The translations under genes and the position numbers were made by a program. Positions 16,706 through 62,100 of a DNA stretch of 64,000 nt are shown here, in pieces. Origin of the DNA: a virus; the IMG/VR virus record IMGVR_UViG_3300025030_000038, positions 62,001 through 126,000 of that record. One strand, 5' to 3'. Below the pieces are notes generated by a model that did not search any database, was not told the origin of the DNA, and was given only the letters and a program-made list of their open reading frames with translations. The stretch's first letter is position 1. Every line of letters begins with the position of its first letter.

Positions 16706-18958
16706 TTACGCTGGAATCAACTCCAGGAGGTTGTCTATCGAATAGACCTTCGTGAAGACAGTATCCACTGTGGGCTTCTGCAACCCGATGTACACACTGT
16801 ACACGTCTTTACTCTTGCTGGCGGGTCTCTGGCTGAGCAAATCGACCAGATACTGTACCGTGAGGTACTTTCGGTCTACCATTGCCTTGGCGAGGAGACC
16901 AGCACTGACCCGATTTTGTTCAACCCGATTGAAATTGGCCATCCCCTTCATGTACAGGTGAAGCCACTTCCCGACCCATTCCCCGCGGTCATTGCGCATG
17001 AACACCAGCGGGAGAGCAATCTGTCCCTTGCCACGAAGGTCTGACTTCACGCGAACCGTGCTGGCCTCAAAAGGCTTCCCCTTCTGTTCCTTGGTGCGCT
17101 CCATGAAGCCAAAGAATGCCTCTTCTGCCTCATCATAGCTATTACCCGAGAACACATTGACCTGAGGGACAATGTATTGGCAGTCGGCCTTCTCAAGGTC
17201 CACGTCAATGAACTCTGAAGCTCCATTGGGGGCACTGGTAATGTCCCCGCTATGGGTCATAAACCCTCCGAACCCACCACGGAGGTCGGTCCAGGAGCAC
17301 TGACTCAGGGCCTGGAAACTCTTGTCCAGGGTGAACACGCTCAGATCATAGTCCGTACGCTCGGTAGCTTCCTTCCAGTAGACAAAGAATCGCAGGAGCC
17401 CCCTGGGGACTGGCATCACTGAACCACGGGGCAGGATCCCAAACCCATCGGACTTGTTCTTCTCAGACAGCGGGAGCGCAATTCCGAGAGCTGCGGTCTC
17501 CACAAACAGGCTAGTGACATCCGGGAGACGACGTAGGATCTCCGCGTCAAAAATACGGTTGAATGCCTCCACGGTATCCTGGCTGAGGGGCTGGCGGTCC
17601 TCTGCCTCCACCCAGGCCTTGCCCTTGCTGTTGGTGAAGATACGAACGGTTCCTGCCACAATGCGGTTCTGGAGGTGTTCCCGCACAGACAGGATCACCC
17701 GACCGGAGACCTTCTCGATCACATCCCGGACCTTGAGCAGTAGGTATCCCGTAGGCATGCCTTCATGCGGACCGGACTCCACGTCCGAAGCCACAACCAG
17801 CAATCGATCCAGGTTCCGGAACAGCATCCCGGGAGCCGTTGCCAAAAGGTCAATGGCCCCAAACACATCCTTCTTGGATAGTGCCAGTTCCACTTTGCCA
17901 GCCAGCGAGGCAGCCTTCTTGTCTCCACGGGCCACCGCAAAAACATCCCTACCTGGGCCCTTGAACTCGTGGGGGTGGACTCGTTCCCCAAGGCGCTTCC
18001 ACACCTCGGCATGCTTGTTGACATCGGCAAGCTTCCACTCGGCATTCTGAACCACCTCATCGAGGGCACGCATCAGGTTACGCCGAATGGGGCGGCTCAT
18101 TGACTTGAACTTCGTGGGCTTTTCCAGGGTCTCATCACCCCCAGAGATGATGCAGGCTAGACGGAGGACATCGATCACCGTGTCTACCAAGATGGACTGG
18201 TTGTTCTCAATGCGAGCCTTGTTGATGATGGCCCGGTTCTCACGAATTGGAATGCTAACCGGTTGCTCCTCGTATAGACAGAGCTGTGCCACATCCTTGA
18301 GCAAGGCCCTGTCACCGTCACTCAGGGGCACCTTGGAGCCAGCAAGCATGTGGTACAGGGTAACAGACTCCTCCAACAGGGACCCGCCCAAATGGAGCAC
18401 TGTGAGCTTCCTGACCGAATCTGGGATGAATTCTTCCTGGTTTGCTACCATTTCCTCATAGGAATGGAGGTACCTCCCGTAACCGGGGAGGCTCAAGAGA
18501 TTGACATACTCTTGGTACCCAACAGGGAACTTGGCGGTATGCCCTGCAAACAATGCCTCATAGGAGCGGATGTCTTGGACGCCTAGACCCTTCTGGTTGA
18601 GTCTTGCGTCTACAAGGCAGGCCATCCAAAATTCCTTGGTGTCAGGAACGTTCTCGGGGAAGTTCTTGAAGTAGACGTTGTGTTTGACATGATCCCCAAC
18701 CATCTCCTGAGCAATCGTGAGAAGCTGGGCAGACATCCCCACAACGTCTTCCGTCCGCTGGGACGCAAGGTACGTGAACAAATCTCCGGAAAGCTTGAAG
18801 CCAATGGAGATCAGGGCACAGTCGAGCTGGCGAGTGATGGCTGCCCCCACCAGTTGATTGGTCCCACTTGTGAGGATGGCAAAAGCCGGAACCCGCTTGG
18901 TACGGGTGACAATTGTCTTGAATTGATCAACACCTGACGGTGACTTGGTGGTGGGCAT
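16706..18958 (-). CDS. Large protein with C-terminal TerD-like domain (750 aa)
   Basis: The N-terminal 480 residues are helical and unrecognised. Residues about 540-640 match the TerD/stress-protein beta fold: DYDLSVFTLDK, CSWTDLRGG, MTHSGDITSAPNGASEFIDVDL, and QYIVPQVNVFSGNSY, which contain the conserved S-G-D calcium-type loop. TerD-like domains occur in bacterial tellurium-resistance and phage-defence-associated complexes, often alongside VWA and kinase proteins such as those at 34-36 kb here. The start is the first ATG after a 45-base gap. The link to those genes is inference. Confidence 0.7.
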   Translation of the reverse strand: MPTTKSPSGVDQFKTIVTRTKRVPAFAILTSGTNQLVGAAITRQLDCALISIGFKLSGDLFTYLASQRTEDVVGMSAQLLTIAQEMVGDHVKHNVYFKNFPENVPDTKEFWMACLVDARLNQKGLGVQDIRSYEALFAGHTAKFPVGYQEYVNLLSLPGYGRYLHSYEEMVANQEEFIPDSVRKLTVLHLGGSLLEESVTLYHMLAGSKVPLSDGDRALLKDVAQLCLYEEQPVSIPIRENRAIINKARIENNQSILVDTVIDVLRLACIISGGDETLEKPTKFKSMSRPIRRNLMRALDEVVQNAEWKLADVNKHAEVWKRLGERVHPHEFKGPGRDVFAVARGDKKAASLAGKVELALSKKDVFGAIDLLATAPGMLFRNLDRLLVVASDVESGPHEGMPTGYLLLKVRDVIEKVSGRVILSVREHLQNRIVAGTVRIFTNSKGKAWVEAEDRQPLSQDTVEAFNRIFDAEILRRLPDVTSLFVETAALGIALPLSEKNKSDGFGILPRGSVMPVPRGLLRFFVYWKEATERTDYDLSVFTLDKSFQALSQCSWTDLRGGFGGFMTHSGDITSAPNGASEFIDVDLEKADCQYIVPQVNVFSGNSYDEAEEAFFGFMERTKEQKGKPFEASTVRVKSDLRGKGQIALPLVFMRNDRGEWVGKWLHLYMKGMANFNRVEQNRVSAGLLAKAMVDRKYLTVQYLVDLLSQRPASKSKDVYSVYIGLQKPTVDTVFTKVYSIDNLLELIPA

Positions 18959-24717: not shown

Positions 24718-25803
24718 ATGTTCCCACTATACACCCCTGAAGCGTTCCAGGCAGCAAAATCTTTCACCTTACTACCCCTGAAGTGTCAACAGTGCCCCAC
24801 CACCATCTATCGGACCAAGAAGGCTCTTAAGTACGCAATCCTGAAAGGCAAGGAGAAATTCTTTTGCCCCAAGTGCCTTCCCCAATCCCAGGTGTCATCC
24901 ATCGAGGTAGCCTGCCTGACTTGCGGGGTCAAGTTCTTGAAGCGGGCATCCCAATGTAAGAAAACCCCCAATCACTTTTGTAGTCGGTCCTGTGCAGTGA
25001 AGACCAACAATGTCAAGACCCCCAAGAGGAAGGTTGAGGGCTCCTGTCGAACCTGTCAGAAGCCTACACATACCAAAGACCGGTATTGCTCGGATTCCTG
25101 TAAGGAGGTGGCCCGTCAAATCTGGGAGGCGGAACGGGAGCTAGAGTGGCAGAAGCCCCCCGTCAAGGTCAAGGGACCCCGTAAGCCTAGGGCGAGTAGT
25201 GGATACAAGAAGATTGGAAGGTCCCCAGCACAAAAGCGGGAGGACGGGAAGGCAGGGGTTGTGGCCTGGAGGCAACGCACCAAGCTCAAAGCCATTGAGT
25301 ACAAGGGAGGATGCTGCCAAACATGCGGGTACCGGAAATGTGTATGGGCTCTCTCTTTCCACCATGTGGACCCCTCACAGAAGGACTTTGGCATTGGTGG
25401 TCGGAATCTTAAGTCCTGGGCCCGTATTCAGGTGGAGTTGGACAAGTGTGTCCTAATTTGTAGTAACTGTCATGCAGAAGTCCATGATGCCCTGGACAGC
25501 ACCCCTGATGCTAAGGCCCATTGGAGGAAACGCCTCAAGATTAAGGCCATTGAGTACAAAGGAGGTCATTGTTGCCTTTGCGGGTACCACAACTGCAACA
25601 GGGCATTGAGTTTTCACCATTTGGACCCGTCCCAAAAGGACTTCAACATCTCCAGGGTTAGTAGAACCTGGGAAAGCATACAACCGGAGTTGGATAAGTG
25701 TGTCCTACTCTGCATGAACTGCCATGGGGAAGTTCATGCTGGCACTGCTATTTTAGACTCGATGGTAGACCGTACTGGAATCGAACCAGTTTCTACGGGT
25801 TAA
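24718..25803 (+). CDS. Zinc-ribbon protein with tandem HNH domains
   Basis: From ATG 24718 (MFPLYTPEAF), three CxxC zinc modules (residues about 20-60, 65-105 and 115-140) precede two near-identical HNH units. Each reads AIEYKGG-CC-x-CGY, ALSFHHxDPSQKDF and a closing CVLxCxNCHxEVH. A duplicated HNH domain is unusual. The gene is on the opposite strand to its neighbours, and its last 12 codons run into the tRNA-Lys gene, as expected for a mobile endonuclease inserted at a tRNA. Catalytic activity is inferred. Confidence 0.75.
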   Translation: MFPLYTPEAFQAAKSFTLLPLKCQQCPTTIYRTKKALKYAILKGKEKFFCPKCLPQSQVSSIEVACLTCGVKFLKRASQCKKTPNHFCSRSCAVKTNNVKTPKRKVEGSCRTCQKPTHTKDRYCSDSCKEVARQIWEAERELEWQKPPVKVKGPRKPRASSGYKKIGRSPAQKREDGKAGVVAWRQRTKLKAIEYKGGCCQTCGYRKCVWALSFHHVDPSQKDFGIGGRNLKSWARIQVELDKCVLICSNCHAEVHDALDSTPDAKAHWRKRLKIKAIEYKGGHCCLCGYHNCNRALSFHHLDPSQKDFNISRVSRTWESIQPELDKCVLLCMNCHGEVHAGTAILDSMVDRTGIEPVSTG

Positions 25804-25836
25804 AAGCCACGCTGCCCAACCAATAGGCCAACGGTC
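25767..25836 (-). tRNA. tRNA-Lys(UUU), imperfect anticodon stem
   Basis: Acceptor GACCGTT/ACGGTC pairs, the D-arm is GCCT-loop-GGGC, and the T-arm is ACTGG-TTCGATT-CCAGT. The anticodon loop CTTTTAA gives UUU reading AAA. The anticodon stem pairs only with a bulged T (CG-T-GG against CCCG). The HNH gene on the other strand ends within the anticodon loop. It may be functional or a damaged tRNA rebuilt by insertion. Confidence 0.6.
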
Positions 25837-25899
25837 CTCAATTGGAGGCGTCGGCGGGTTTGAGTCGAAGTGAGAAGGAAAACGTCATTTGGACCTCAG

Positions 25900-27801: not shown

Positions 27802-28122
27802 TTACTTGACCCTCATTGCCTTCTCGATCAACACGTCACCGTAGCCTGCTACGGCCAGGGCATCCGACTCATCCCAGGGCAGCTCATAGTACACGGCTTT
27901 GCACTGTTTGCAACCGCGACGCATCCTAGCCCGGTGTGGTACAATGCCCCACAAGCGTTTCCACCAAGACGGTTCGTAAGCCGGTTCATAGGTATCAGAC
28001 GGCCCCTGTGGAACCATCTTCCCCATGCTCAACATCATCGTCGGATCAGCGGTGTAGGTGCCACACTTCCGGCACGGCATCGAGGGTGACCTGTACGGGG
28101 GCAGTGGCTCTTTTGTGTTCAT
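27802..28122 (-). CDS. Zinc-ribbon protein (106 aa)
   Basis: Two Cys pairs, CRKCGTYT (residues about 17-20) and CKQCKAVYY (about 73-76), can make one zinc-ribbon separated by a basic loop with WWKRLWG. It is coupled to the ADP-ribosylglycohydrolase gene by a four-base overlap. Role unknown. Confidence 0.65.
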   Translation of the reverse strand: MNTKEPLPPYRSPSMPCRKCGTYTADPTMMLSMGKMVPQGPSDTYEPAYEPSWWKRLWGIVPHRARMRRGCKQCKAVYYELPWDESDALAVAGYGDVLIEKAMRVK

Positions 28123-29111
28123 CGAGTTGGACCTTTCATAAGTAACTCGTCCATCTGGATCAAGACCTGCCCATCCTTGAGCCCTTCCACCCAGCCAGTA
28201 GGGATAGCCTCCAGGCCCAGATAGGTGCCCAACAGGGCGCCTGTGATGGCTGCCCGGGTGTCCGTGTCCCCCCCACCCCTCACGGCCATCCTAACCCCCT
28301 CAGCGAAGTCATCTTCGTGGGCCATGGCGCAGTAGACCGCTGAAACCACTGTCTGGGCAGCGTTACCCCGTCGACCCAGAAGGCCGATGGCTTCTGGGGT
28401 GGGGGTGTTGAGGTCGAAGAGATCAAAAGCCATTCGGAGTAGCTTGGTGACATTGGTTGAATCGGGGCCCCCGAAACTCCGGCTATCTAGGATGGCCAGT
28501 ACCTCTTGAAGTGTTCCCGCCACAGTCCACCTGTGGGATGAAAGCCCAGCTACCAGCATGGCGATCACCGAACTTGCTGTGATTGCTTCGATGTGGTCAT
28601 GGGTGATCGTGGCGTCCAATCGGGCCACATGGTGCATCACCAGCGGGTTTTCGTTACGGTAGAAGAGCCCAAGGGGGGCTACCCGCATGGCAGTGCCATT
28701 GCCCACAGCGTTGGGGTTGTCGAAGGTCTTGCCTGACCGGTCCCAAGGGACACCATCCCGCACTGCCCGGAGGGCATCGCGTGTGGATCCTCCCATCCCA
28801 CATGGTTCCCCTTGGGCCCATATGAGGTAGCCATTTGCGGCATCCACTGGGTCATACTTGCCACAAGCCATGAGGGATTTGGCCAGTGCCATGGCCATCC
28901 CGGTGTCATCTGTCCAGCACCCTGCTGGGAGACTGGGCATGGGGACCTTACCATCGAGGGTGTGTGTTAGCCGGTCCGGCCAGGACCCAGCCACATAGTT
29001 GCCGTCCCAGGTGGCGAGACGGGGGTCCACTCTGTCGCTGAAGTGCTCGAAGGGCATCCCCAAAGCATCCCCTACCGCGAGTCCGACCATTGTTGCTGGT
29101 GCTGATTTCAT
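28119..29111 (-). CDS. ADP-ribosylglycohydrolase (DraG/ARH family)
   Basis: From ATG 29111 (MKSAPATMVGLAVGDALG), the protein (330 aa, usual size) has the metal-binding motifs GLAVGDALGMPFE near residue 9, GCWTDDTGMAMALAKSL near 55 and GGGDTDTRAAITGALLG near 277. These enzymes remove ADP-ribose from arginine, serine or nucleotides with Mg2+. With the NADAR protein it suggests the phage reverses ADP-ribosylation during infection; that link is inferred. The start overlaps the HNH gene stop by four bases. Confidence 0.88.
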   Translation of the reverse strand: MKSAPATMVGLAVGDALGMPFEHFSDRVDPRLATWDGNYVAGSWPDRLTHTLDGKVPMPSLPAGCWTDDTGMAMALAKSLMACGKYDPVDAANGYLIWAQGEPCGMGGSTRDALRAVRDGVPWDRSGKTFDNPNAVGNGTAMRVAPLGLFYRNENPLVMHHVARLDATITHDHIEAITASSVIAMLVAGLSSHRWTVAGTLQEVLAILDSRSFGGPDSTNVTKLLRMAFDLFDLNTPTPEAIGLLGRRGNAAQTVVSAVYCAMAHEDDFAEGVRMAVRGGGDTDTRAAITGALLGTYLGLEAIPTGWVEGLKDGQVLIQMDELLMKGPTR

Positions 29112-29938
29112 GTTGCCAAGTCCCTCCCCATTCCCCAGAAAATACCAGCGTCCACTGGGAGTCTTCCGCTGGCACTCAATCGTTCCCACATCCTGGCAAC
29201 CATTGCCCGTCCTCGCGTCTTCCCTACCCCACGTCCCCGTTCCAGCACAACCCACCATTGGGCAAGTGGCATGGCGCCCTTCTTCTTGTTGCAGGAGTGG
29301 CACAGGACCATGAAATTCGAGGGGTCATTAGGCCCGCTTTGGCAGCTGGGCACAATGTGGTCAATGGTCAGATCGGAGGGTCTTGTGGGAGACTGTTCCC
29401 CGGTTCTTCCACATGCCTCACACTTGTGCCCCGCACGCCGGACAATGGCTTGCTTTGACCAGCTCTTCCGTATCCCAACACCTTCTCGATAGGGTTTGTA
29501 CCCCCAGGCTCGCACCACATCGAGGTACCTTGAATCCTCCATGGAGATGACATAGGGGGCAAATCCCGTTATGTCATAAACAAAGCGAAGGGGGTCCTCT
29601 CCAATCGTCTCCCGGGTGATGGTTGGGTCCAAGTATTGGTGCTCTCGAATCACATGGACAGCATTAACGATGATCTCACGCCGATAGGGCACCCACGGCT
29701 CCGCATACAGACCCCGTAGGTTCCCGTAAAAGGGGTAGTTGCCCTCTTTGGCCACCCACTGCCCCATGTTGCGCACGATCCGCTTGGCCTCAACATGCTC
29801 GGGGGGCAGCTGATCCGCTGCAACGCGGGCAAGTCGGACCAGGGTGGCGATCTTGTCAATGGTCTCTGGTAGGTCAATCATCGGAGCTGCCCCAGGATAC
29901 GGTACTCCCGCATATCCCGCATAGTTGTACCTCATCAT
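29108..29938 (-). CDS. HNH endonuclease-like protein
   Basis: Residues about 170-225 form an HNH zinc finger: CEACGRTG, then TIDHIVPSCQSG (catalytic His), NDPSNFMVLCHSCNKKKG. The first 160 residues are an extra helical domain without recognised relatives, longer than most free-standing HNH proteins. ATG 29938 or 29935 follows AAGAAG; promoter P7 lies just upstream. Confidence 0.75.
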   Translation of the reverse strand: MMRYNYAGYAGVPYPGAAPMIDLPETIDKIATLVRLARVAADQLPPEHVEAKRIVRNMGQWVAKEGNYPFYGNLRGLYAEPWVPYRREIIVNAVHVIREHQYLDPTITRETIGEDPLRFVYDITGFAPYVISMEDSRYLDVVRAWGYKPYREGVGIRKSWSKQAIVRRAGHKCEACGRTGEQSPTRPSDLTIDHIVPSCQSGPNDPSNFMVLCHSCNKKKGAMPLAQWWVVLERGRGVGKTRGRAMVARMWERLSASGRLPVDAGIFWGMGRDLAT

Positions 29939-30446
29939 ATCTTCTTACCCTTGGACCTCCTCTTACCCTTATCGGTACGGGGGGAGAGGTTTTTAGAGAA
30001 ATCATACATGACCATATGTGACACCACATGGGATGTAACCATCTCCTTGGGTAACGTATAGGATGACAGAATGGAGTGAGAAAACGGTAACCCTCGCTGG
30101 GGGTCTCAATGACCAGCTTGTCTGCCAGGGTCTCAGCTTCGGTGGCCCGCACCGAGTAGAACTCATGGGCACCATAACAGGTCCCAAAGGTATTCCCAGT
30201 CGTGTAGCGGACCGTCACCAAGTAGACGTGCTGGAGACCGAATACCTTCTCGTCCTCTACCTCAAGGCTGTCCGTGAACATGATGTCAGGCTTGGACTTG
30301 TAGAGGTGAAGGACATGCAGGGTGGTGTGGATAGGCTCATGGGAAGACCACCTGTCGTTGGGGTCAAGGACTTCCCCACCTGACTCCGTGGTGTCATACT
30401 CAATGTAGACACGCGGCTTCTCTGGCTCATTGTTGTGTCGCATCAC
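29874..30446 (-). CDS. Hypothetical protein, probable frameshift near its 3' end
   Basis: The first 130 residues read as a natural beta-rich protein, but the uninterrupted frame then runs through promoter P7 and over the next gene's start, with unlikely composition. The +1 frame from about 30070 reads YVTQGDGYIPCGVTYGHV and stops at 30002, just before P7. A frameshift, real or from sequencing, would give a product of about 145 residues. Function unknown. Confidence 0.6.
   Translation of the reverse strand: MMRHNNEPEKPRVYIEYDTTESGGEVLDPNDRWSSHEPIHTTLHVLHLYKSKPDIMFTDSLEVEDEKVFGLQHVYLVTVRYTTGNTFGTCYGAHEFYSVRATEAETLADKLVIETPSEGYRFLTPFCHPIRYPRRWLHPMWCHIWSCMISLKTSPPVPIRVRGGPRVRRYDEVQLCGICGSTVSWGSSDD
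29966..30003 (-). promoter_or_regulatory. Phage promoter motif P7
   Basis: Minus strand: CTCTAAAAACC, then CGTACCGATAAGGG, an A instead of G after GAT, before AAGAGG. It separates the long 30-39 kb operon from the HNH/ADP-ribosylglycohydrolase operon. Confidence 0.82.
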
Positions 30447-30812: not shown

Positions 30813-31124
30813 TTAGGGTCTCTGTTGCAGGTGAATGGCAATGGCCAGGGACAGGGCTAGATTCACCCGGCTAGTGGCATCCCCCAATTCCTTGTGGGCC
30901 TTGTCCAATCGCCCCATTAGGTCTTCCAGTTCGGGTGGTCGCTCCAGGGCATCCTCTGACGCCTGGAGAATAGGTGGCATCAACAGGAGAAGATCCTTGA
31001 GTCGCTGTGCGGCATCTCCCACTTCCTGGAAGACGCTCATTTTCTGGCACTTCCCCAAAAGGGCATCACAGCGGATTAGCTGCAAATCCATGTACTCCTG
31101 CACCTTCTGAAGTTTGGTTTTCAT
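30813..31124 (-). CDS. Coiled-coil protein (103 aa)
   Basis: Nearly the whole protein is helical with heptad character (LQKVQEYMDLQLIRCDALLGK, LEDLMGRLDKAHKELGDA). It overlaps the Thg1 gene by four bases, so the two are co-translated, possibly as partners. No known family. Confidence 0.68.
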   Translation of the reverse strand: MKTKLQKVQEYMDLQLIRCDALLGKCQKMSVFQEVGDAAQRLKDLLLLMPPILQASEDALERPPELEDLMGRLDKAHKELGDATSRVNLALSLAIAIHLQQRP

Positions 31125-31969
31125 GGCATTGGCCCCATCATGGTGTTAAACTCCTCCTCGGTGTATGCGGTCCCCCCAAAGAAAAGAGCCTTCACCCGAT
31201 TGGCAACGGTGGCCAGGGGTGGGTAGACAATGGGCTCGATCTTGGACCTAGTGACAGAGAGGCCGGGGTTCTTCCTGGCATTGTGACCGGGGGGCAGGGC
31301 CTCCAAGTCCTCAGCCGTGAACGGTGCAGTCGTGGTGGTACGTCGAATGAACGTCCCCCGCTTGCACTGGGGGGGATACTTGTCCCAGTCAATGCCCCTC
31401 TGGAGGAGCATCTGCTTCTGCTCCAGCCCGTTCAGGCCATGAAGCTCCTTGTGGGAGCACACCGCTTGAGCGGCCATGGAGACGGAGTTCTTGGTGGCAT
31501 CCCACTCCCGCCACATGATGCAGTTAGCTGCCTCTTCGAGGTCGGGCACATTCCAAACCCGACAATCGAACGTGGGCGCCCGACCGACCTTCTTGTTAGG
31601 AAGGTACTTGGGCATCAAGAGATTGAAGTGCACACTCGCAAACGCCGCCAGCGAGGATGTGATCTTCTGGATACGCCCATCGAAGTACAGCTGGCTCTCG
31701 AAGGAGTCAGAGTACAGGACCAGACTGATCTCGTCTGACTGCGTGTAGCCAATACGCGCATTGGACTCCTTGACCAGAAGCTCCGTGACGTTCTGCATGA
31801 GTCCCATGAGACCTGGGTCAAAAGGGCGAATGAGTCCTTTCGTGAAGGTGTGAAAACTCCGACCATCCAGTCGGATCATCGCAGGAAGTCCGGGCATAAG
31901 GCGCCGCTGTGCCTCCACGCCCTCGTAGACCTTCATTCTTGTGCCAAGGACATCTTTGATATCACTCAT
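31121..31969 (-). CDS. tRNA(His) guanylyltransferase (Thg1-like)
   Basis: From ATG 31969 (MSDIKDVLGTRMKVYEG), residues about 32-46 (MIRLDGRSFHTFTKG) and 78-86 (TQSDEISLV) supply the two carboxylates binding Mg2+ in Thg1/TLP enzymes, with FDGRIQKITSSLAAFASVHFN between domains. These enzymes add nucleotides in the 3'-to-5' direction to tRNA 5' ends; bacterial-type relatives repair truncated tRNAs. No tRNA-His is in the window, so repair of phage tRNAs is a reasonable guess. Confidence 0.9.
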   Translation of the reverse strand: MSDIKDVLGTRMKVYEGVEAQRRLMPGLPAMIRLDGRSFHTFTKGLIRPFDPGLMGLMQNVTELLVKESNARIGYTQSDEISLVLYSDSFESQLYFDGRIQKITSSLAAFASVHFNLLMPKYLPNKKVGRAPTFDCRVWNVPDLEEAANCIMWREWDATKNSVSMAAQAVCSHKELHGLNGLEQKQMLLQRGIDWDKYPPQCKRGTFIRRTTTTAPFTAEDLEALPPGHNARKNPGLSVTRSKIEPIVYPPLATVANRVKALFFGGTAYTEEEFNTMMGPMP

Positions 31970-32282
31970 TGAAATCCTCAAATAGGCTGTGTACATACGC
32001 CTTGGGATAATCAATGTGGTTTAGGGACCACCGGGTCAACATCCGCATGGCAGCAGCTACCCCGTCAGTCCACGCCTGGACCTCCGCCTGGGTAAGGGCA
32101 GCAAATGTAACTATTCTCGCCTGGACTTTGGTGCCAAGTATTGTAACCTCAAAATTCCCCTTCACATCCCACCAACTCTGAAGCTCTGAGTCCCAGGTCA
32201 TGTGGAGAGGGAGTGCTGAATAGAGGCCCGACAGGTTCACCCCATTGGCGTAGATATACTTTGGATGCTTGCGCTTTTTCAT
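31962..32282 (-). CDS. Hypothetical protein (106 aa)
   Basis: The protein has a basic start (MKKRKHPKYIY), a beta-like middle (FEVTILGTKVQARIVTFAAL), and a helical end (VQAWTDGVAAAMRML). Not recognised. Its stop overlaps the Thg1 start by eight bases. Confidence 0.66.
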   Translation of the reverse strand: MKKRKHPKYIYANGVNLSGLYSALPLHMTWDSELQSWWDVKGNFEVTILGTKVQARIVTFAALTQAEVQAWTDGVAAAMRMLTRWSLNHIDYPKAYVHSLFEDFNE

Positions 32283-32479
32283 GTAGCCACCATGGGAACG
32301 GGACGGGCAATCTTCACGACTTGAACATTGGCCCCATTGAAGGTCTTGGGAATTGACCCAACTGTGGTTCCACGTTGGACGTATACGAAGTAGACGTCCC
32401 CATACTCATCCTTCCCTATACCAATGCTGGCACCTATTGGAAGCAATGCCTTCAGGGCCTGGATAGCCTCCCGGGTCAT
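32279..32479 (-). CDS. Hypothetical protein (66 aa)
   Basis: Small mixed protein with a helical start (MTREAIQALKALLP) and beta strands (YGDVYFVYVQRG, VQVVKIARPV). Overlaps both neighbours by four bases. Unknown function. Confidence 0.66.
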   Translation of the reverse strand: MTREAIQALKALLPIGASIGIGKDEYGDVYFVYVQRGTTVGSIPKTFNGANVQVVKIARPVPMVAT

Positions 32480-32952
32480 GCTTCTCTTACACTCCCAAGG
32501 GCATCCCTGAGCAACTGAAGTACGAATTTGTTGGGGACAATGTGTGGATTCAACTCATCGAACTCCGCCACGTCCAGGCCAAGCAGGTCCTTGGTGAACT
32601 CTGCCACCGCCCCCGACCGAGCAACCCCACCCAAGCAGTTGACCAGCAACAGGTCTCGCCTGTAGGCGGCATCCTCATGGGCCTTGAGAATGAATCTCAC
32701 GATCAGCTCGGCCTGTTCAGGTTGGAACAGGGCTTTGGCTGGCAGGAAATCGGTGTCGTCCAGGTCCAGGTCATCGAATTGGAGTACTAGGGTATCAGCG
32801 GAGGGCTCGAAGATGGGCTTCTTCCCAACGTCCGTGATCGAAATGATCCAGACCTTCCCGTGGGAACGGGTCAGCACGCCAAGCTCGAACTGGTTTCCGT
32901 CCGCCCACTTCAACATGTGGGCTTCGGGGACTGCTGCGACATGAGAGATCAA
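32476..32952 (-). CDS. PTP-like phosphatase-fold protein 1
   Basis: Residues about 99-115 read LLVNCLGGVARSGAV, a CxxGxxRSG phosphatase P-loop with the invariant Cys and Arg. The remaining pattern (a Asp/Leu-rich segment DDLDLDDTDF before it) is matched by the paralogue at 60627. The usual His before the Cys is Asn. It may remove phosphate from proteins or be a pseudo-enzyme. It belongs to the same operon as the protein kinase at 35446. Confidence 0.75.
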   Translation of the reverse strand: MISHVAAVPEAHMLKWADGNQFELGVLTRSHGKVWIISITDVGKKPIFEPSADTLVLQFDDLDLDDTDFLPAKALFQPEQAELIVRFILKAHEDAAYRRDLLLVNCLGGVARSGAVAEFTKDLLGLDVAEFDELNPHIVPNKFVLQLLRDALGSVREA

Positions 32953-33015
32953 GATTTCTCCCTGAGAAGCTTCGCCTTTTGGGCATGCGCCTTCATGCCT
33001 GAAGTTACGCCCAAG

Positions 33016-33375
33016 CTACTTCTTGGGGACTGGCAAACCAATTCCCGAGCTGAATTCAGCGTAGGGGTCCTTGGGGGCCGATGTGGGCGGGTTTGGCTCA
33101 ATAGTCTGGATAGTCTGGTATCGATTAAGCATGTAGACCTGCAAGATCTTGTTGGAAATGGCCCGGCGATTCGACGAGGTAAACAGGGCCACGAGATGGG
33201 CCACCTCGGCTTCCGACTCATCGTCTGAGCCAAAGTATCGTCGGATTGCATTGCGACGTTCGAGGACAGAGGCGAGTATGGCCCCGAGTTCTGTTTGAAG
33301 ATGGCCAATCTCCTCTACGGGGCCATTGACCGCAGCCAATTCTTGAGACTCGGACAGTTTTGGGTTCTTGGCCAT
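33016..33375 (-). CDS. Hypothetical protein (119 aa)
   Basis: Start chosen at ATG 33375 (MAKNPKLSESQEL). Residues 20-85 are helical, with an Ala/Pro-rich linker and tail. Unrecognised. Longer upstream reading would cover the small gene at 33419. Confidence 0.65.
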   Translation of the reverse strand: MAKNPKLSESQELAAVNGPVEEIGHLQTELGAILASVLERRNAIRRYFGSDDESEAEVAHLVALFTSSNRRAISNKILQVYMLNRYQTIQTIEPNPPTSAPKDPYAEFSSGIGLPVPKK

Positions 33376-33418
33376 GGTGCCCTCAAAGGGATCCAAGTAA
33401 AGGCCCGCTAGCGCCGGG

Positions 33419-33526
33419 CTAGGATTTCTTTGGACAATCCCTCACAGACGCAATGTGGGCAATCGCTAGCTGGCGCTTAGCAGATTCCCGCCCCTTTGGC
33501 CACAGCTCAATGCGGATTACGAGCAT
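33419..33526 (-). CDS. Short conserved phage peptide (35 aa)
   Basis: The frame reads MLVIRIELWPKGRESAKRQL then IAHIASVRDCPKKS. Its first half matches a small beta-protein family common in tailed phages (IRIELWP.G...KR), usually about twice as long. It overlaps the end of the pyruvate-kinase-like gene by ten bases. It may be a shortened relic or a genuine mini-protein. Confidence 0.5.
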   Translation of the reverse strand: MLVIRIELWPKGRESAKRQLAIAHIASVRDCPKKS

Positions 33527-34431
33527 GAGAGAGCCTCAAAGGTGGCCACGGCCCGCCCCAGGGCCTTCCCTTCTTTGCACAGGTCGTCACAGAGCAGGAA
33601 GGACCGGTATCCAATTGACCGGAGCAATCCAATCTCACAGATGTCACTGCATGAGGGAACCGTGTTATTGAACAAGGACAGCATCATCCTGGACCCCACA
33701 AGAGCATCCCGGTCCATTGCTATGATTAGTCGCTGGGCAGCCAGGATATCATGGGGGTGATCAACTTCCACATACAGGTCTCCACGGGCTGCCATCAATC
33801 GGACATTGGGTTGCTTGCAGAAGTCTCTCTGTACAAACTGCAACCCCTTCTTGGACTCTATCTTCAGGATGATCTCGGAGTCCTTGCCCACCAGCTCTTG
33901 GAACTCTTCCAGGTCTCGCTGTTGTTCCACATAGGAGAGGTAGAACTTCCTGTGCCCCATCTTGTAGGCAGCTTGGATCTTCTCCACCTCATCATTCGTA
34001 AAGAGCTTGGAATCCCGGATGGTCAGATGCTCATCTCGGAAGTGGATGGAGTCCCCGGCCTTGACTCGGTACTTGGGGAATCCATCTGCCTTCATGTGGA
34101 GCCGGTTGCCCTCTGTGATCCTCTCCACAGTGGCCCAGTCCTCACCTGCCTTGAAGATGATTGGGTGGGGCAGTGGCAGGTCAATTCGGTGGTTCAGGAC
34201 CAGTTCAAGGTGATCCGCATGGGAGATAGACTCCTCCACCCGAAGCTGGCGCCCCTTGGCGTCAAACCACAGAGGGACTGTAGCTGAAGCGGGGATGGAC
34301 GCCACCTCGGCCTTCAAGTCACAGGCCCGGAAGAACAAACCATTCATTCTTATCCCTTTGAGGAAAGGGTGACTCGCAAATTCAGCGAAGTGTGGATCAC
34401 TGGGAACAGCCGTGATGTGCAAATTCAACAT
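33517..34431 (-). CDS. Pyruvate-kinase-like TIM-barrel protein
   Basis: Residues about 200-290 match the catalytic part of pyruvate kinase: ILKIESKKGLQ (Lys-Ile-Glu), RLMAARGDLYVEV (ARGDL-x-x-E), ILAAQRLIIAMDRDALVGSRMM, then VPSCSDICEIG. Upstream, residues 112-165 correspond to the B-domain region. The protein (304 aa) is shorter than host pyruvate kinase and lacks its C-terminal domain. It may be a phosphoenolpyruvate- or oxaloacetate-acting relative; activity is unproven. Located two genes from a VWA/kinase pair. Confidence 0.75.
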   Translation of the reverse strand: MLNLHITAVPSDPHFAEFASHPFLKGIRMNGLFFRACDLKAEVASIPASATVPLWFDAKGRQLRVEESISHADHLELVLNHRIDLPLPHPIIFKAGEDWATVERITEGNRLHMKADGFPKYRVKAGDSIHFRDEHLTIRDSKLFTNDEVEKIQAAYKMGHRKFYLSYVEQQRDLEEFQELVGKDSEIILKIESKKGLQFVQRDFCKQPNVRLMAARGDLYVEVDHPHDILAAQRLIIAMDRDALVGSRMMLSLFNNTVPSCSDICEIGLLRSIGYRSFLLCDDLCKEGKALGRAVATFEALSCS

Positions 34432-34448
34432 GAGTCCTCAATTAAGCC

Positions 34449-35411
34449 TTAGAGAAGGGGCTTGGAAGGCTTCCCCGCTGGCAGCTTGTGGAATGTGCTC
34501 TTCCCCGAGCCTGCCACCTTGGGGGCGTTCTGGTACAACCCGTTGAGGGAGGTAAGGACCTTGCGAGACTGGTCGGCGGTCTGCCGGTCAGTCAACTCCT
34601 TGGTGAACACATCGGCCTTACCTGAAGTCCAGGCAAGGATTCCAAACAACACATCCACCACCCGCTCAGGCTGATCCAGAGGGATCAGATGCTCCGGGGG
34701 GAGGAGCTTGGTCCAATCGCGCTTGACCCGTGCTGTGGTAGGTGAGTTGACATCATCATGCCCATATGGCTTGTGGATCAGGTAGACATCGTAGACATTA
34801 TTCAGCTCCGCGAACAGAGTCTCCGTGGACTGGTTCTCGATGGTGACCCCGAATGGGGCCAGATGGGAAGCACGCACCTTGTCATAGGGGCTCTCGTCCC
34901 CAATGAATACCAGGACCGGCTTCTGGTCCCTAGCCACCCTGATACCCGCGAGGAAGAAGGCAGCGGCTACCTCATAGCTTTCGCAGGTCTGGCCTCCGCC
35001 ACCCCCCTCAATGACAAGGGATGTCAGGGATTCTTTGGTCTTGTCGAAGGTGGCCTCTGGTGGATAGACCTGGAGTGGGTACTTGTCCCCGTCCACATCC
35101 CCCACGGCTGAGACCAGGAACTTGGCATCCGCTCCAAGGTATGACTTGAGCTCGTGAAGCAAGTATGGCAGCTTCGAGAACATCACCGCGGGCCAAGTCC
35201 CCATCGAGCCGGTGACATCGCACACAACGGCCAGGGTGGGCGTGTCAATGCTGATCTCGGTCTTTGGTACCAGATCCCTGGCTGTGACGCCAGCGGCTAC
35301 GGCCTTACCATAGCTGCGGTCTACCACCGAGGAGGTATATGCCGCTCTGGCATCCTTGAAGTCATGGCTGGGGACCCAGTTGGTGGACGTGTAATCGGCT
35401 GACTCAGACAT
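34449..35411 (-). CDS. VWA-domain protein with MIDAS motif
   Basis: The domain spans about residues 55-270. VVCDVTGSMGTWPA (DxTGS) and VFIGDESPYD are the metal-ion-dependent adhesion site motifs. The N-terminus has a helical prefix, and the C-terminus is Lys/Pro rich. Co-localised with the DnaJ-kinase gene (34 bases away), which recalls the TerY-type VWA plus kinase pairs in bacterial Ter systems. No phosphatase PP2C is present, but PTP-like proteins are. Confidence 0.8.
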   Translation of the reverse strand: MSESADYTSTNWVPSHDFKDARAAYTSSVVDRSYGKAVAAGVTARDLVPKTEISIDTPTLAVVCDVTGSMGTWPAVMFSKLPYLLHELKSYLGADAKFLVSAVGDVDGDKYPLQVYPPEATFDKTKESLTSLVIEGGGGGQTCESYEVAAAFFLAGIRVARDQKPVLVFIGDESPYDKVRASHLAPFGVTIENQSTETLFAELNNVYDVYLIHKPYGHDDVNSPTTARVKRDWTKLLPPEHLIPLDQPERVVDVLFGILAWTSGKADVFTKELTDRQTADQSRKVLTSLNGLYQNAPKVAGSGKSTFHKLPAGKPSKPLL

Positions 35412-35445
35412 TGGTGTGCTCCTTAACTGTAGATACTAGACGCAA

Positions 35446-36474
35446 CTAAAACGTGTCGTAGGGGACCTTGGGGAAGATTTTACCCCGGGTGTTTCGGGTG
35501 CCAAAACACTTGATTCTCAGGTCATGGATCTCCTTCAAGATGTCCATGCTCTGCCAGTTGGGGCGATCGGTAATATTGGGGGCCGTCATCATCCGCAGGA
35601 ACTCGCGGATCCCGACCGGTACATCCGAGGAGCGAAGGGACTCATCCCGCTTGGACATTTTCCCGGTAAAGGCATAGAGCATTGTCATCCCCAGAGAGTA
35701 CAAATCCGTCTCGGGAATCAGGGGTTTACGGTCTGCCTCCAATTGCTCAGGGGGAGAGAAGTGATTGGTGAACCCAATGTTGTGGTCCATCGAGGTTGGC
35801 TTGACCATAGACAGCCCAAAGTCAATCATGACCGCCCCGTGGCTTTCCGGCTGGAGGATCACATTCTGGGGTTTGATGTCCCCATGGACTACCCCATTGG
35901 CATGAAGGTAGCTTAGCCCTGCCATCAATCGCTCGAAGATCCACCCACAGTGCTCGGGGTCAATCTTTCCCAGGTGCTTGACCGCTTGGTCGAGTGTGGG
36001 CCCGGGAACGTAGGACATGATGATTGCCACGGCCCCATCATCGAGCTTTAGGACCTCGCGGATGGCCGGGAATGCGTAGTGCCTGATGTCCCACACGGCA
36101 CCTGCCTCATTGAGCATGACGGATTCATACTCGGGCCCCACACCCAGGCAACACTTCACACACACCAACTTCTGAGTCAGCTGGTGACGGGCCACATAGG
36201 TCCGACCCATTGCCCCCTCAGCCAGGAACTTGAGGATCTCATAGGACCCAATGATCGTCTTCCCCGTGGGGACCGCCCTGCCTGCCTCCCGGTCATACTT
36301 GGCCCGCTTTTTCACGTCGCCAAGAATGTCATGGGCTGCCCCGATCTCCGTGAAGAGCTTCTGGGACCCACCATGGTCAGGGTGGTGCTTGTTGGCCAAT
36401 GCCTTGTAAGCGGCATTGATGACCTCAACCGAGGCCCTTGAGTCAACATTCAAAATGCGGTACAAGTCGGTCAT
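35446..36474 (-). CDS. J-domain fused to Ser/Thr protein kinase
   Basis: Residues 1-62 form a DnaJ J-domain with YRILNVDSRASVEVINAAYK and the HPD motif (HHPDHGG). Residues about 78-330 are a complete protein kinase: ATP-binding LAEGAMGRTYVAR, CVKCC lysine, HGDIKPQN catalytic loop, IDFGLS, then SPPEQ. ATG 36474 (MTDLYRILN) is chosen. The kinase probably acts in signalling with the VWA protein. Fusion to a J-domain suggests Hsp70 recruitment. Substrates unknown. Confidence 0.88.
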   Translation of the reverse strand: MTDLYRILNVDSRASVEVINAAYKALANKHHPDHGGSQKLFTEIGAAHDILGDVKKRAKYDREAGRAVPTGKTIIGSYEILKFLAEGAMGRTYVARHQLTQKLVCVKCCLGVGPEYESVMLNEAGAVWDIRHYAFPAIREVLKLDDGAVAIIMSYVPGPTLDQAVKHLGKIDPEHCGWIFERLMAGLSYLHANGVVHGDIKPQNVILQPESHGAVMIDFGLSMVKPTSMDHNIGFTNHFSPPEQLEADRKPLIPETDLYSLGMTMLYAFTGKMSKRDESLRSSDVPVGIREFLRMMTAPNITDRPNWQSMDILKEIHDLRIKCFGTRNTRGKIFPKVPYDTF

Positions 36475-39114: not shown

Positions 39115-39155
39115 CCCCTATCGGCACGGCGGGAAGGAACTTTTAGTGGAATCGG
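39115..39155 (-). promoter_or_regulatory. Phage promoter motif P8
   Basis: Minus strand: CACTAAAAGTTCC, then CGTGCCGATAGGGGG and TGTAAGGAACCC before the gene starting at 39099. It appears to drive the operon with the VWA, kinase, phosphatase and Thg1 genes (39.1 to 30.0 kb). Confidence 0.83.
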
Positions 39156-47057: not shown

Positions 47058-47096
47058 TCCCTATCGGTACGAGAAGGGGAACTTTTAGCGAATTCA
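47058..47096 (-). promoter_or_regulatory. Phage promoter motif P9
   Basis: Minus strand: CGCTAAAAGTTCCC, then CGTACCGATAGGGAG, 13 bases from the start at 47045. CGAATTC precedes the A-run as in P11, P12 and P14. Confidence 0.84.
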
Positions 47097-59983: not shown

Positions 59984-60630
59984 GGGTGCCTCAATTGTGG
60001 GAATCGACGTTCGAGATCGGCCACCAACTGTCGACCGAGTTTTCGGTTTTCCTCTACTTCCTTGTCAGCAGCCTTCTGTTTCGCGAGTTCCCGGGCATCC
60101 CAGGTAGCCTTCTTCATTGGACGCTCCCCGAGTATTTCTGCGAGACGTTCATGGGCCAGTCTGAAGCCCGTGCCCTTCGCATGGCGCGGCTTTGGCAAAT
60201 TACAGAGGACATGCGCGGCATCATAGGCAAAAGCCAGCCAGTCGGGACGCACGTTGTCGGGTACGTACATGATATGGGAGTACTTGCTCATCAGGCACAT
60301 ACCCCGCATAGGACCTTTTACGGGACCTTCGGGCAAGGCATCGACTTTGGCATAGTGGGCCAACTTGTCTTTGAGAATTCCTGCAAGTTTGGGATCCTTG
60401 GAATACTCCTCAAGTTCGTCGGCCCTTCGGGCGGGTTCCTCCAAGTATGCGTTGGGCTCACAGTTCACCAGGGCCCCATCGTGCCACACATACCCGTTGC
60501 CATACCCGAAGAAAAGGCTATTGATGACATCCAATCGGGTGCGGTACAGGGTCTTCCAGTGGGAGAAACAATCCCGAAGCGTGGCCTGAACACTTTGGGA
60601 TTCCTTGCGGCGGCTATGCTTGGTACTCAT
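59980..60630 (-). CDS. Tandem paralogue B2 (216 aa)
   Basis: Start at ATG 60630 (MSTKHSRRKESQS) overlapping the upstream stop. It shares CFSHWKTLYRTRLDVINSLF and GNGYVWHDGA, YVPDNVRPDWLAFAYDAAHVL and WDAREL with paralogue B1 but lacks its N-terminal 70 residues. Function unknown. Confidence 0.7.
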   Translation of the reverse strand: MSTKHSRRKESQSVQATLRDCFSHWKTLYRTRLDVINSLFFGYGNGYVWHDGALVNCEPNAYLEEPARRADELEEYSKDPKLAGILKDKLAHYAKVDALPEGPVKGPMRGMCLMSKYSHIMYVPDNVRPDWLAFAYDAAHVLCNLPKPRHAKGTGFRLAHERLAEILGERPMKKATWDARELAKQKAADKEVEENRKLGRQLVADLERRFPQLRHP

Positions 60631-61133
60631 CCTTTCCAGGCCCCCATGAGCAGAGATTTGACGTGCATGTTGGGAATGACACCCTGGTTCATCCGTTTCC
60701 ACTCGTCGTAGTCCTGTCCACATACCGTGCGAGCGAAGTCCGATATGGCCCCCGACCGTGAGATACCCATGTGGCAATTGACCACGAGGAGGTCTTGACT
60801 CTCGGGGCGAGATTCATGGGCGCGACGAATGAAGTCCATGACCTTTTTGGCCATGGTGTCATTGAAGTAGACCAGCTGGGGGTCTCGTGGCAACTGAACC
60901 CCGTTTGGGGTGTACTTGTCCTGGATGTCGTCGAATTGGAGAGCAATACGGTCCTCCAACTCCTCCGTGATCAGGAGCTTGTAGGTGCCATCGCAGACCC
61001 CATTCGTGACCGAGATGATCCAAACCCGGTCGAATTGATGGGCCATCGAGGCAATGCTGTTGGTGGGGTTAACGCCCGCAAGGAAGTCCGCCATCACCGA
61101 GTAGGGTACCGCCCGCGCTGCTACAATCGTCAT
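60627..61133 (-). CDS. PTP-like phosphatase-fold protein 2
   Basis: From ATG 61133 (MTIVAARAVPYS), residues about 115-130 read LLVVNCHMGISRSGAI, a CxxGxxRSG P-loop. The layout matches the paralogue at 32476: an acidic segment, LQFDDIQD-like strand, VMDFIRRAHES before the loop, and a tail ending near IPNMHVKSLLM. Phosphatase activity is possible; the His before the Cys is Asn here too. Confidence 0.75.
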   Translation of the reverse strand: MTIVAARAVPYSVMADFLAGVNPTNSIASMAHQFDRVWIISVTNGVCDGTYKLLITEELEDRIALQFDDIQDKYTPNGVQLPRDPQLVYFNDTMAKKVMDFIRRAHESRPESQDLLVVNCHMGISRSGAISDFARTVCGQDYDEWKRMNQGVIPNMHVKSLLMGAWKG

Positions 61134-61198
61134 GGCATCATCTTCTTGAGGATGTCCCCGAAGTTGGTTTTGAGTGGCTCCCTGGCTTCCTTGGCCAT
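61130..61198 (-). CDS. Possible 22-residue peptide
   Basis: MAKEAREPLKTNFGDILKK then MMP ends in ATGA at the phosphatase start, which matches the coupling style of this genome. The RBS is weak. It might be a leader for the phosphatase gene. Confidence 0.35.
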   Translation of the reverse strand: MAKEAREPLKTNFGDILKKMMP

Positions 61199-61223
61199 TT
61201 TCCGCCAATCACCAGGGAAATGC

Positions 61224-61408: not shown

Positions 61409-61446
61409 CCCTATCGGTACGAGGGGACAACTTTTTAGAGAAATCG
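61409..61446 (-). promoter_or_regulatory. Phage promoter motif P16
   Basis: Minus strand: CTCTAAAAAGTTGTCC, then CGTACCGATAGGG and TGTAGGAACACC before ATG 61396. It drives the leftward operon with the second phosphatase and paralogue pair. The rightward genes after 61.5 kb have no copy of this motif. Confidence 0.84.
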
Positions 61447-61959: not shown

Positions 61960-62100
61960 ATGCAGGGACTAGACATTTTCGTAACCAACCACCCATGGAT
62001 CACGGCATTTCTGCTGCTTATTCTATATGAGCTGGTGGTTGGGCTGGTTAACCCACGGATCTGCCAACACTGCTATGAAAAGGAAGACGCTGATGAGTAA
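61960..62100 (+). CDS. Small membrane protein (46 aa)
   Basis: The frame MQGLDIFVTNHPWITAFLLL continues ILYELVVGLVNPRICQHCYE. A single membrane helix covers residues about 13-33, and a CQHC tail follows. AAGG lies just upstream. The stop overlaps the next gene by eight bases. A holin-like role is only possible. Confidence 0.6.
   Translation: MQGLDIFVTNHPWITAFLLLILYELVVGLVNPRICQHCYEKEDADE

Follow-up and report, generated by a model that had tools for sequence, protein, structure and literature searches.

A J-domain kinase, a VWA protein and a pyruvate-kinase-like enzyme form the huge-phage arm of a wider mobile gene cassette

Introduction

Why should a huge phage carry a protein kinase fused to a J domain, directly followed by a VWA protein and a relative of pyruvate kinase (PK)? 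The question is raised by a stretch of 64,000 nucleotides, here called the window, that runs from position 62001 to position 126000 of a virus record of 485 kb (IMGVR_UViG_3300025030_000038). The identical sequence is found in the uncultured phage record LR745208.1, which contains a TerL-family match. A preliminary description of this DNA grouped the three genes, together with one for a supposed protein tyrosine phosphatase (PTP), into a single operon, and likened the set to the Ter-type signalling systems of bacteria. Here we report that the three genes are one arm, the huge-phage form, of a wider mobile cassette made up of a J-kinase, a VWA protein and an enzyme, and we weigh the readings of what such a cassette may do.

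Results

A conserved trio and its wider family

The three genes lie on the minus strand and are transcribed in the order kinase, VWA, PK-like, with 34 nt between the first two and 17 nt between the last two:

35446..36474, minus strand: J-domain/Ser-Thr protein kinase fusion, 342 aa (PF00226 1e-14, PF00069 7e-29, motif table)
34449..35411, minus strand: VWA-fold protein with a DxTxS metal-ion-dependent adhesion site (MIDAS), 320 aa (phrog_2971 1.6e-29, AlphaFold2 model, Foldseek, alignments)
33517..34431, minus strand: PK-like enzyme, 304 aa, with a barrel and a short B domain but no C domain (PF00224 6e-8, model and fold match, residue table)

The same trio, in the same order and on the same strand, is found at 14 viral loci (the window and 13 others), which represent 10 VWA clusters at 70% identity. 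The kinase precedes the VWA gene in all 14, and the contigs include examples of 318, 392 and 436 kb. When searched with a profile of this VWA protein, the viral collection gave 395 encoded relatives and bacterial genomes gave at least 509, of which the best 80 from each source were kept. Apart from the PK-type loci, nearly every locus with sufficient sequence has a diverged adenylosuccinate synthetase (PurA) as its enzyme. Wherever an enzyme match lies beside a VWA gene it is downstream of it and on the same strand (167 of 167 matches). The VWAs of the PK-type loci form one clade (support 96/99), with a single change in 99% of bootstraps. No PurA (PF00709) is encoded anywhere in the 485-kb phage record, and the third slot there holds the PK-like enzyme. 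The earlier expectation that the domains of this locus travel together therefore holds for the kinase, VWA and PK-like proteins, but not for the PTP-like protein, which has no relatives in the other loci.

The wider cassette consists of a J-(pseudo)kinase, a VWA protein and a diverged PurA, usually accompanied by an NrtR-like NUDIX regulator, and is found in bacteria, on plasmids and in many phages, with approximately 190 mycobacteriophage records among the carriers. The bacterial copies are PurA-type and often stand with a NUDIX gene that bears an NrtR-type DNA-binding domain (NrtR_WHD match). They occur in Pseudomonadota, Bacillota, Actinomycetota (plasmids), Nitrospirota and other groups, and are rare, e.g. 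6 of 399 sampled Pseudomonadota. Upstream of the VWA gene, PurA-type loci have a J-pseudokinase, a Met-rich protein or neither; the Met-rich protein replaces the J-kinase before the VWA and PurA genes in Rhizobium, Vibrio and gut phages (L008:4615-5406, L009:5090-5803 and L010:5217-5825).

The state of the kinase follows the type of enzyme

The catalytic Lys, the HGD Asp and the DxG are all kept in every PK-type kinase (14/14), compared with none of the PurA-type kinases (0/107). Of the same two groups, 11 of 14 and 99 of 107, respectively, have the J-domain motif HPD. The 'serine/threonine kinase' genes of cluster C mycobacteriophages also look like pseudokinases, with HGA for HRD and DWC for DFG (L003:6322-7389, L015:3721-4794).

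The window kinase has an HPD motif, a VAIK-type Lys, an HGD Asp and a DFG. Its J domain is N-terminal, the kinase domain extends almost to the C-terminus, and Pfam finds no C-terminal domain. The two profile matches and the complete set of catalytic motifs bear out its description as a DnaJ-kinase fusion. A search of the phage record found no encoded Hsp70, so the partner of the J domain would be the Hsp70 of the host (DnaK).

The kinase domain resembles the defence kinases PD-T4-6 and MADS6 in PADLOC. This could point to a kinase for superinfection exclusion or host takeover, with the VWA and PK-like proteins as its targets or as immunity factors. We dropped the defence-kinase reading of these matches, as the scores are generic and would be expected of any bacterial Ser/Thr kinase; since such a role also leaves the conservation of three genes unexplained, we regard it as highly improbable.

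The enzyme slot

The PurA proteins of the cassette retain the GD of GDEGKG in 152 of 154 sequences and a WQGxxR-like motif in 119 of 154, while the GRRRR aspartate loop is found in 0/154. All of the bacterial genomes with a cassette that were examined (12/12) additionally contain a canonical PurA, thus diverged paralogues, and not housekeeping copies, occupy the enzyme slot. We also considered PurZ of Z-genomes as an identity for this protein and rejected it on the NCBIfam matches (PurZ 5e-5, PurA 5e-46).

The PK-like protein was correctly named in the preliminary description, although its Pfam match is barely above the cut-off (11 of 12 family members match). Its predicted structure has a pLDDT of 90 and matches pyruvate kinases in Foldseek (E 1e-17, TMq 0.67-0.76). 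Among the 12 family members R28 of the RxN motif is kept in 11, and N30, D57, K59, K190, E192, G217 and D218 in all, so that the RxN, DxKG (D, K), KIE (K, E) and RGD (G, D) signatures are retained. The protein therefore shares with pyruvate kinase (PF00224) the barrel fold and the residues of the phosphoenolpyruvate (PEP)/Mg2+ site. It is, however, approximately 170 residues shorter than the bacterial form, has no C-terminal domain, and carries Ser-Arg in place of the canonical Thr-Gln in 12/12 members. The best score with the curated NCBIfam models of pyruvate kinase is 41 for this 304-aa protein, against a cut-off of 432. The C domain is the allosteric domain of pyruvate kinases. Because the PEP/Mg2+ active site is kept and this domain is lost, the enzyme probably performs enolpyruvate or phosphoryl chemistry under external control, and not ordinary regulated glycolysis.

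A simpler possibility is auxiliary metabolism, in which the PK-like enzyme simply supplies the phage with pyruvate and ATP, and the kinase and VWA genes are beside it by an accident of operon structure. The PK fold and most of the catalytic residues are indeed there. Yet the missing C domain, the invariant change of Thr-Gln to Ser-Arg, the conserved order of three genes, and the sister cassettes whose slot holds a diverged PurA with a different chemistry make this distinctly unlikely.

The VWA protein

The product of the middle gene has no match to any Pfam, NCBIfam or PDB sequence model, and stray weak Pfam matches are all that was found among 47 relatives when they were checked for a TerY-like VWA. 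A VWA fold is nevertheless supported by the AlphaFold2 model built from these 47 aligned sequences, which has a pLDDT of 85 and for which Foldseek gives a probability of 1.00 against solved structures of VWA and integrin I domains. The model and the MIDAS motif (DVTGS) uphold the earlier naming of this protein where sequence profiles give nothing, and the motif predicts that it binds a metal.

In Mycobacterium phage ET08 an intein-like insert disrupts the homologous gene (gp248, L003:7431-9215) immediately ahead of the IGDE motif. The product has 594 residues, compared with 339 for gp263 of phage Momo, and some records label the gene 'HNH endonuclease'. Elsewhere in the set, a DNA polymerase III alpha-like gene seems to be broken up by an intein-like insert together with a further open reading frame (L002:11287-16244).

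Transcription unit and neighbouring genes

The following features, all on the minus strand, mark the limits of the cassette and the genes beyond it:

39116..39146 (motif copy at 39117-39128), minus strand: phage promoter motif, CTAAAA, 12 nt, CGTGCCGATAGGG, which heads the transcription unit holding the cassette (motif count)
33403-33419, minus strand: terminator-like hairpin, after the PK-like gene and ahead of the next genes (pattern scan)
33016..33396, minus strand: 126-aa protein outside the conserved cassette, with no relative in other cassette loci
32476..32952, minus strand: CX5R (PTP-like) protein, 158 aa, outside the conserved cassette (phrog_5614 3.5e-10)
28119..29303, minus strand: ADP-ribosylglycohydrolase (ARG) in the next promoter unit (PF03747 5e-65)

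The motif CGTRCCGATAGG has 16 copies in the window, where 0.25 are expected (up to one mismatch), nearly all of them on the minus strand and just ahead of genes. It takes the form CTAAAA-N12/13-CGTRCCGATAGGG, with copies at, e.g., 39117-39128, 47060-47071 and 61410-61421. The first of these is very likely the promoter P8 from which one operon was said to run. A sigma-70 promoter was considered and dropped (4 matches, 3.4 by chance). The over-represented motif and the close spacing of the trio agree with the proposed operon as far as the PK-like gene. The 126-aa and PTP-like genes lie beyond a 120-nt gap that holds the hairpin, a type of element about as common in shuffled sequence and, in this region, no more frequent than chance, and hence weak evidence by itself. 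The PTP-like gene may or may not be co-transcribed with the cassette.

A PTP fold for this last protein is plausible from its CX5R motif (VNCLGGVARSG) and its phrog_5614 match, but neither Pfam nor the PDB gave a match for the fold that had been assigned to it. A paralogue lies at 60630-61208, and its Y_phosphatase match reaches only 0.01. A tRNA-His guanylyltransferase (Thg1, PF04446 3.8e-31) is encoded at 31121-32014, in a phage rich in tRNA genes. ARAGORN also calls a tRNA-like element with a four-base anticodon (ttta) at 25763-25837, which may be a miscall or else a genuine tRNA of an unusual kind. The PTP-like, Thg1 and 126-aa proteins were considered as members of the cassette and rejected, as no relatives of any of them occur at the remaining loci.

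A VWA protein and a motif-intact Ser/Thr kinase in one unit, with a CX5R protein approximately 0.6 kb downstream of the PK-like gene, could be taken for a Ter-type phospho-signalling switch, a kinase, VWA and phosphatase triad like TerY-P in which the CX5R protein is the phosphatase. One further PK-type locus (L026) has a dual-specificity phosphatase directly after the PK-like gene (PF00782 3e-15, L026:8210-8647). However, no relative of the window's CX5R protein occurs at any other PK-type locus, and its gene lies after the terminator-like hairpin, while the constant third gene encodes an enzyme and not a phosphatase. No PP2C is found at the locus, and the kinase differs in architecture, having no C-terminal zinc ribbon. 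The sole PP2C_2 match of the 485-kb record (G000:C1:14035-14841) is approximately 80 kb from the cassette and beside a different kinase-like protein. TerD (PF02342) has no match anywhere in the record; the protein at 16706-18958, previously described as TerD-like, matches only phrog_33734, a phage family of unknown function. We consider a Ter-type switch very unlikely, and the analogy drawn in the preliminary description fails on the points that we tested. What survives of the phospho-signalling module proposed there is a conserved unit with a VWA protein and a motif-complete kinase, from which the PTP-like protein is absent.

Outside the window, the PP2C (PF13672 2.8e-10) adjoins a protein of 561 aa that matches kinases weakly, and a NUDIX gene is next (G000:C1:14035-16908, L179:5036-7908). 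The PP2C and the 561-aa protein are possibly a second phospho-signalling pair in the same phage.

Possible links to NAD and ADP-ribose

The next copy of the promoter motif (29968-29979) heads an HNH gene and the ARG gene, and the ARG is possibly a functional partner of the cassette. An ARG is encoded in 9 of 13 PK-type viral records, in several of them approximately 4-6 kb from the cassette, compared with 0/20 PurA-type viral records. The NrtR-like NUDIX regulator of the bacterial cassettes is from a family reported as a sensor of ADP-ribose (PMC9503650), and nicotinate phosphoribosyltransferase (NAPRT) and NAD synthase genes lie near some copies (L137, L126). Because of these three associations, the genes point to NAD and ADP-ribose as the physiological context of the cassette.

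This context, with the patchy presence of the cassette in bacteria and its carriage on plasmids and phages, would also fit a conflict module with which the phage, or the bacterial host, answers ADP-ribosylation or immunity based on ADP-ribose and NAD. We think this unlikely. No NUDIX regulator is found beside the cassette in PK-type phages, the PADLOC matches are those of any such kinase, and the ARG evidence is weak because the PK-type phages are relatives of one another and the distance of the ARG from the cassette varies.

Discussion

What, then, might the cassette do? Our starting point is what is directly observed: the gene set, its order and conservation, the swap of enzymes and the confinement of intact kinase motifs to the PK arm. 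From these we tentatively favour, at a little short of even chances, a reading of the trio as a mobile cassette in its huge-phage form, with the J-domain kinase-fold and VWA proteins as a dedicated control or assembly pair for the enzyme of the third gene. The pseudokinase of the PurA arm would serve as a scaffold on which the enzyme meets the VWA protein and the host Hsp70, the latter recruited through the HPD motif of the pseudokinase. The live-looking kinase of the huge phages would phosphorylate one of its two cassette partners (VWA or PK-like) or a protein of the host; phosphorylation might switch the PK-like enzyme on or off, and the J domain would recruit host DnaK.

Several points weigh against this proposal. 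Contact among the three proteins and phosphorylation by the kinase are steps that we infer. All of the loci were found with VWA or PK-like queries, thus their co-occurrence is conditional on those genes. The correlation between kinase state and enzyme comes from a single clade of PK-type VWAs, and is therefore one evolutionary contrast and not 14. Three PK-type kinases have no HPD motif, one of them (L034) because it has no recognisable J domain, so that a chaperone link would not be essential in those three. Finally, the PK-like enzyme could have quite a different substrate.

A more ambitious version of the control-pair reading combines it with the metabolic context. This would be a mobile system, carried by several bacterial phyla as well as by plasmids and phages, in which chaperone-linked kinase-fold and VWA proteins run an interchangeable nucleotide or phosphoryl-transfer enzyme under ADP-ribose/NAD control, and in which the phospho-regulated PK-like version of the huge phages counters NAD/ADP-ribose immunity. 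We find it doubtful.

In approximately 190 mycobacteriophage records, and in many bacteria, the members of the cassette carry separate annotations or are called hypothetical; seen together, they are predicted to function as a unit. The exchange of PurA for a PK-like enzyme, alongside lost or intact kinase motifs, predicts that the huge-phage form is phosphorylation-based and the other form is not. If the link to NAD and ADP-ribose is true, the cassette would be a new class of player in the phage-host conflict over these metabolites. We found no description of it in the open-access papers searched, a scope that makes its novelty provisional.

Comparison with known systems

The TerY-P triad has been defined as a TerY-like VWA protein, a PP2C phosphatase and a Ser/Thr kinase with a C-terminal zinc ribbon or OB fold (PMC11090510). 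Both it and the phage unit pair a VWA protein with a Ser/Thr kinase. However, the phage unit has no PP2C, it has a J domain in place of the zinc ribbon, and its third gene is a conserved metabolic enzyme. It is not a TerY-P triad as defined there.

The ARG-centred systems include a vWA chaperone, a phosphatase and a NUDIX regulator (PMC9503650, section 3.8). The logic of a vWA protein with an ADP-ribose-sensing NUDIX is common to these and the bacterial arm of the cassette, and the window has an ARG, a CX5R protein and a VWA protein within approximately 8 kb. The core here is nevertheless kinase, VWA and enzyme, the ARG belongs to a separate promoter unit and is not always there, and the published account mentions neither the PurA nor the PK-like enzymes. 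The cassette is not one of these systems.

The closest likenesses are within the cassette family. The bacterial set of NrtR-like NUDIX, J-pseudokinase, VWA and PurA has a homologous kinase and VWA protein in the same order, and differs in its NUDIX regulator, its pseudokinase and its PurA in place of the PK-like enzyme. Cluster C (Bxz1-type) mycobacteriophages, e.g. ET08 (gp247-gp248-gp250), likewise encode a J-kinase fold and a homologous VWA protein followed by an enzyme of nucleotide metabolism. Their kinase has no catalytic Asp or DFG, their enzyme is a PurA paralogue, and the three are annotated as separate genes (kinase, hypothetical and PurA).

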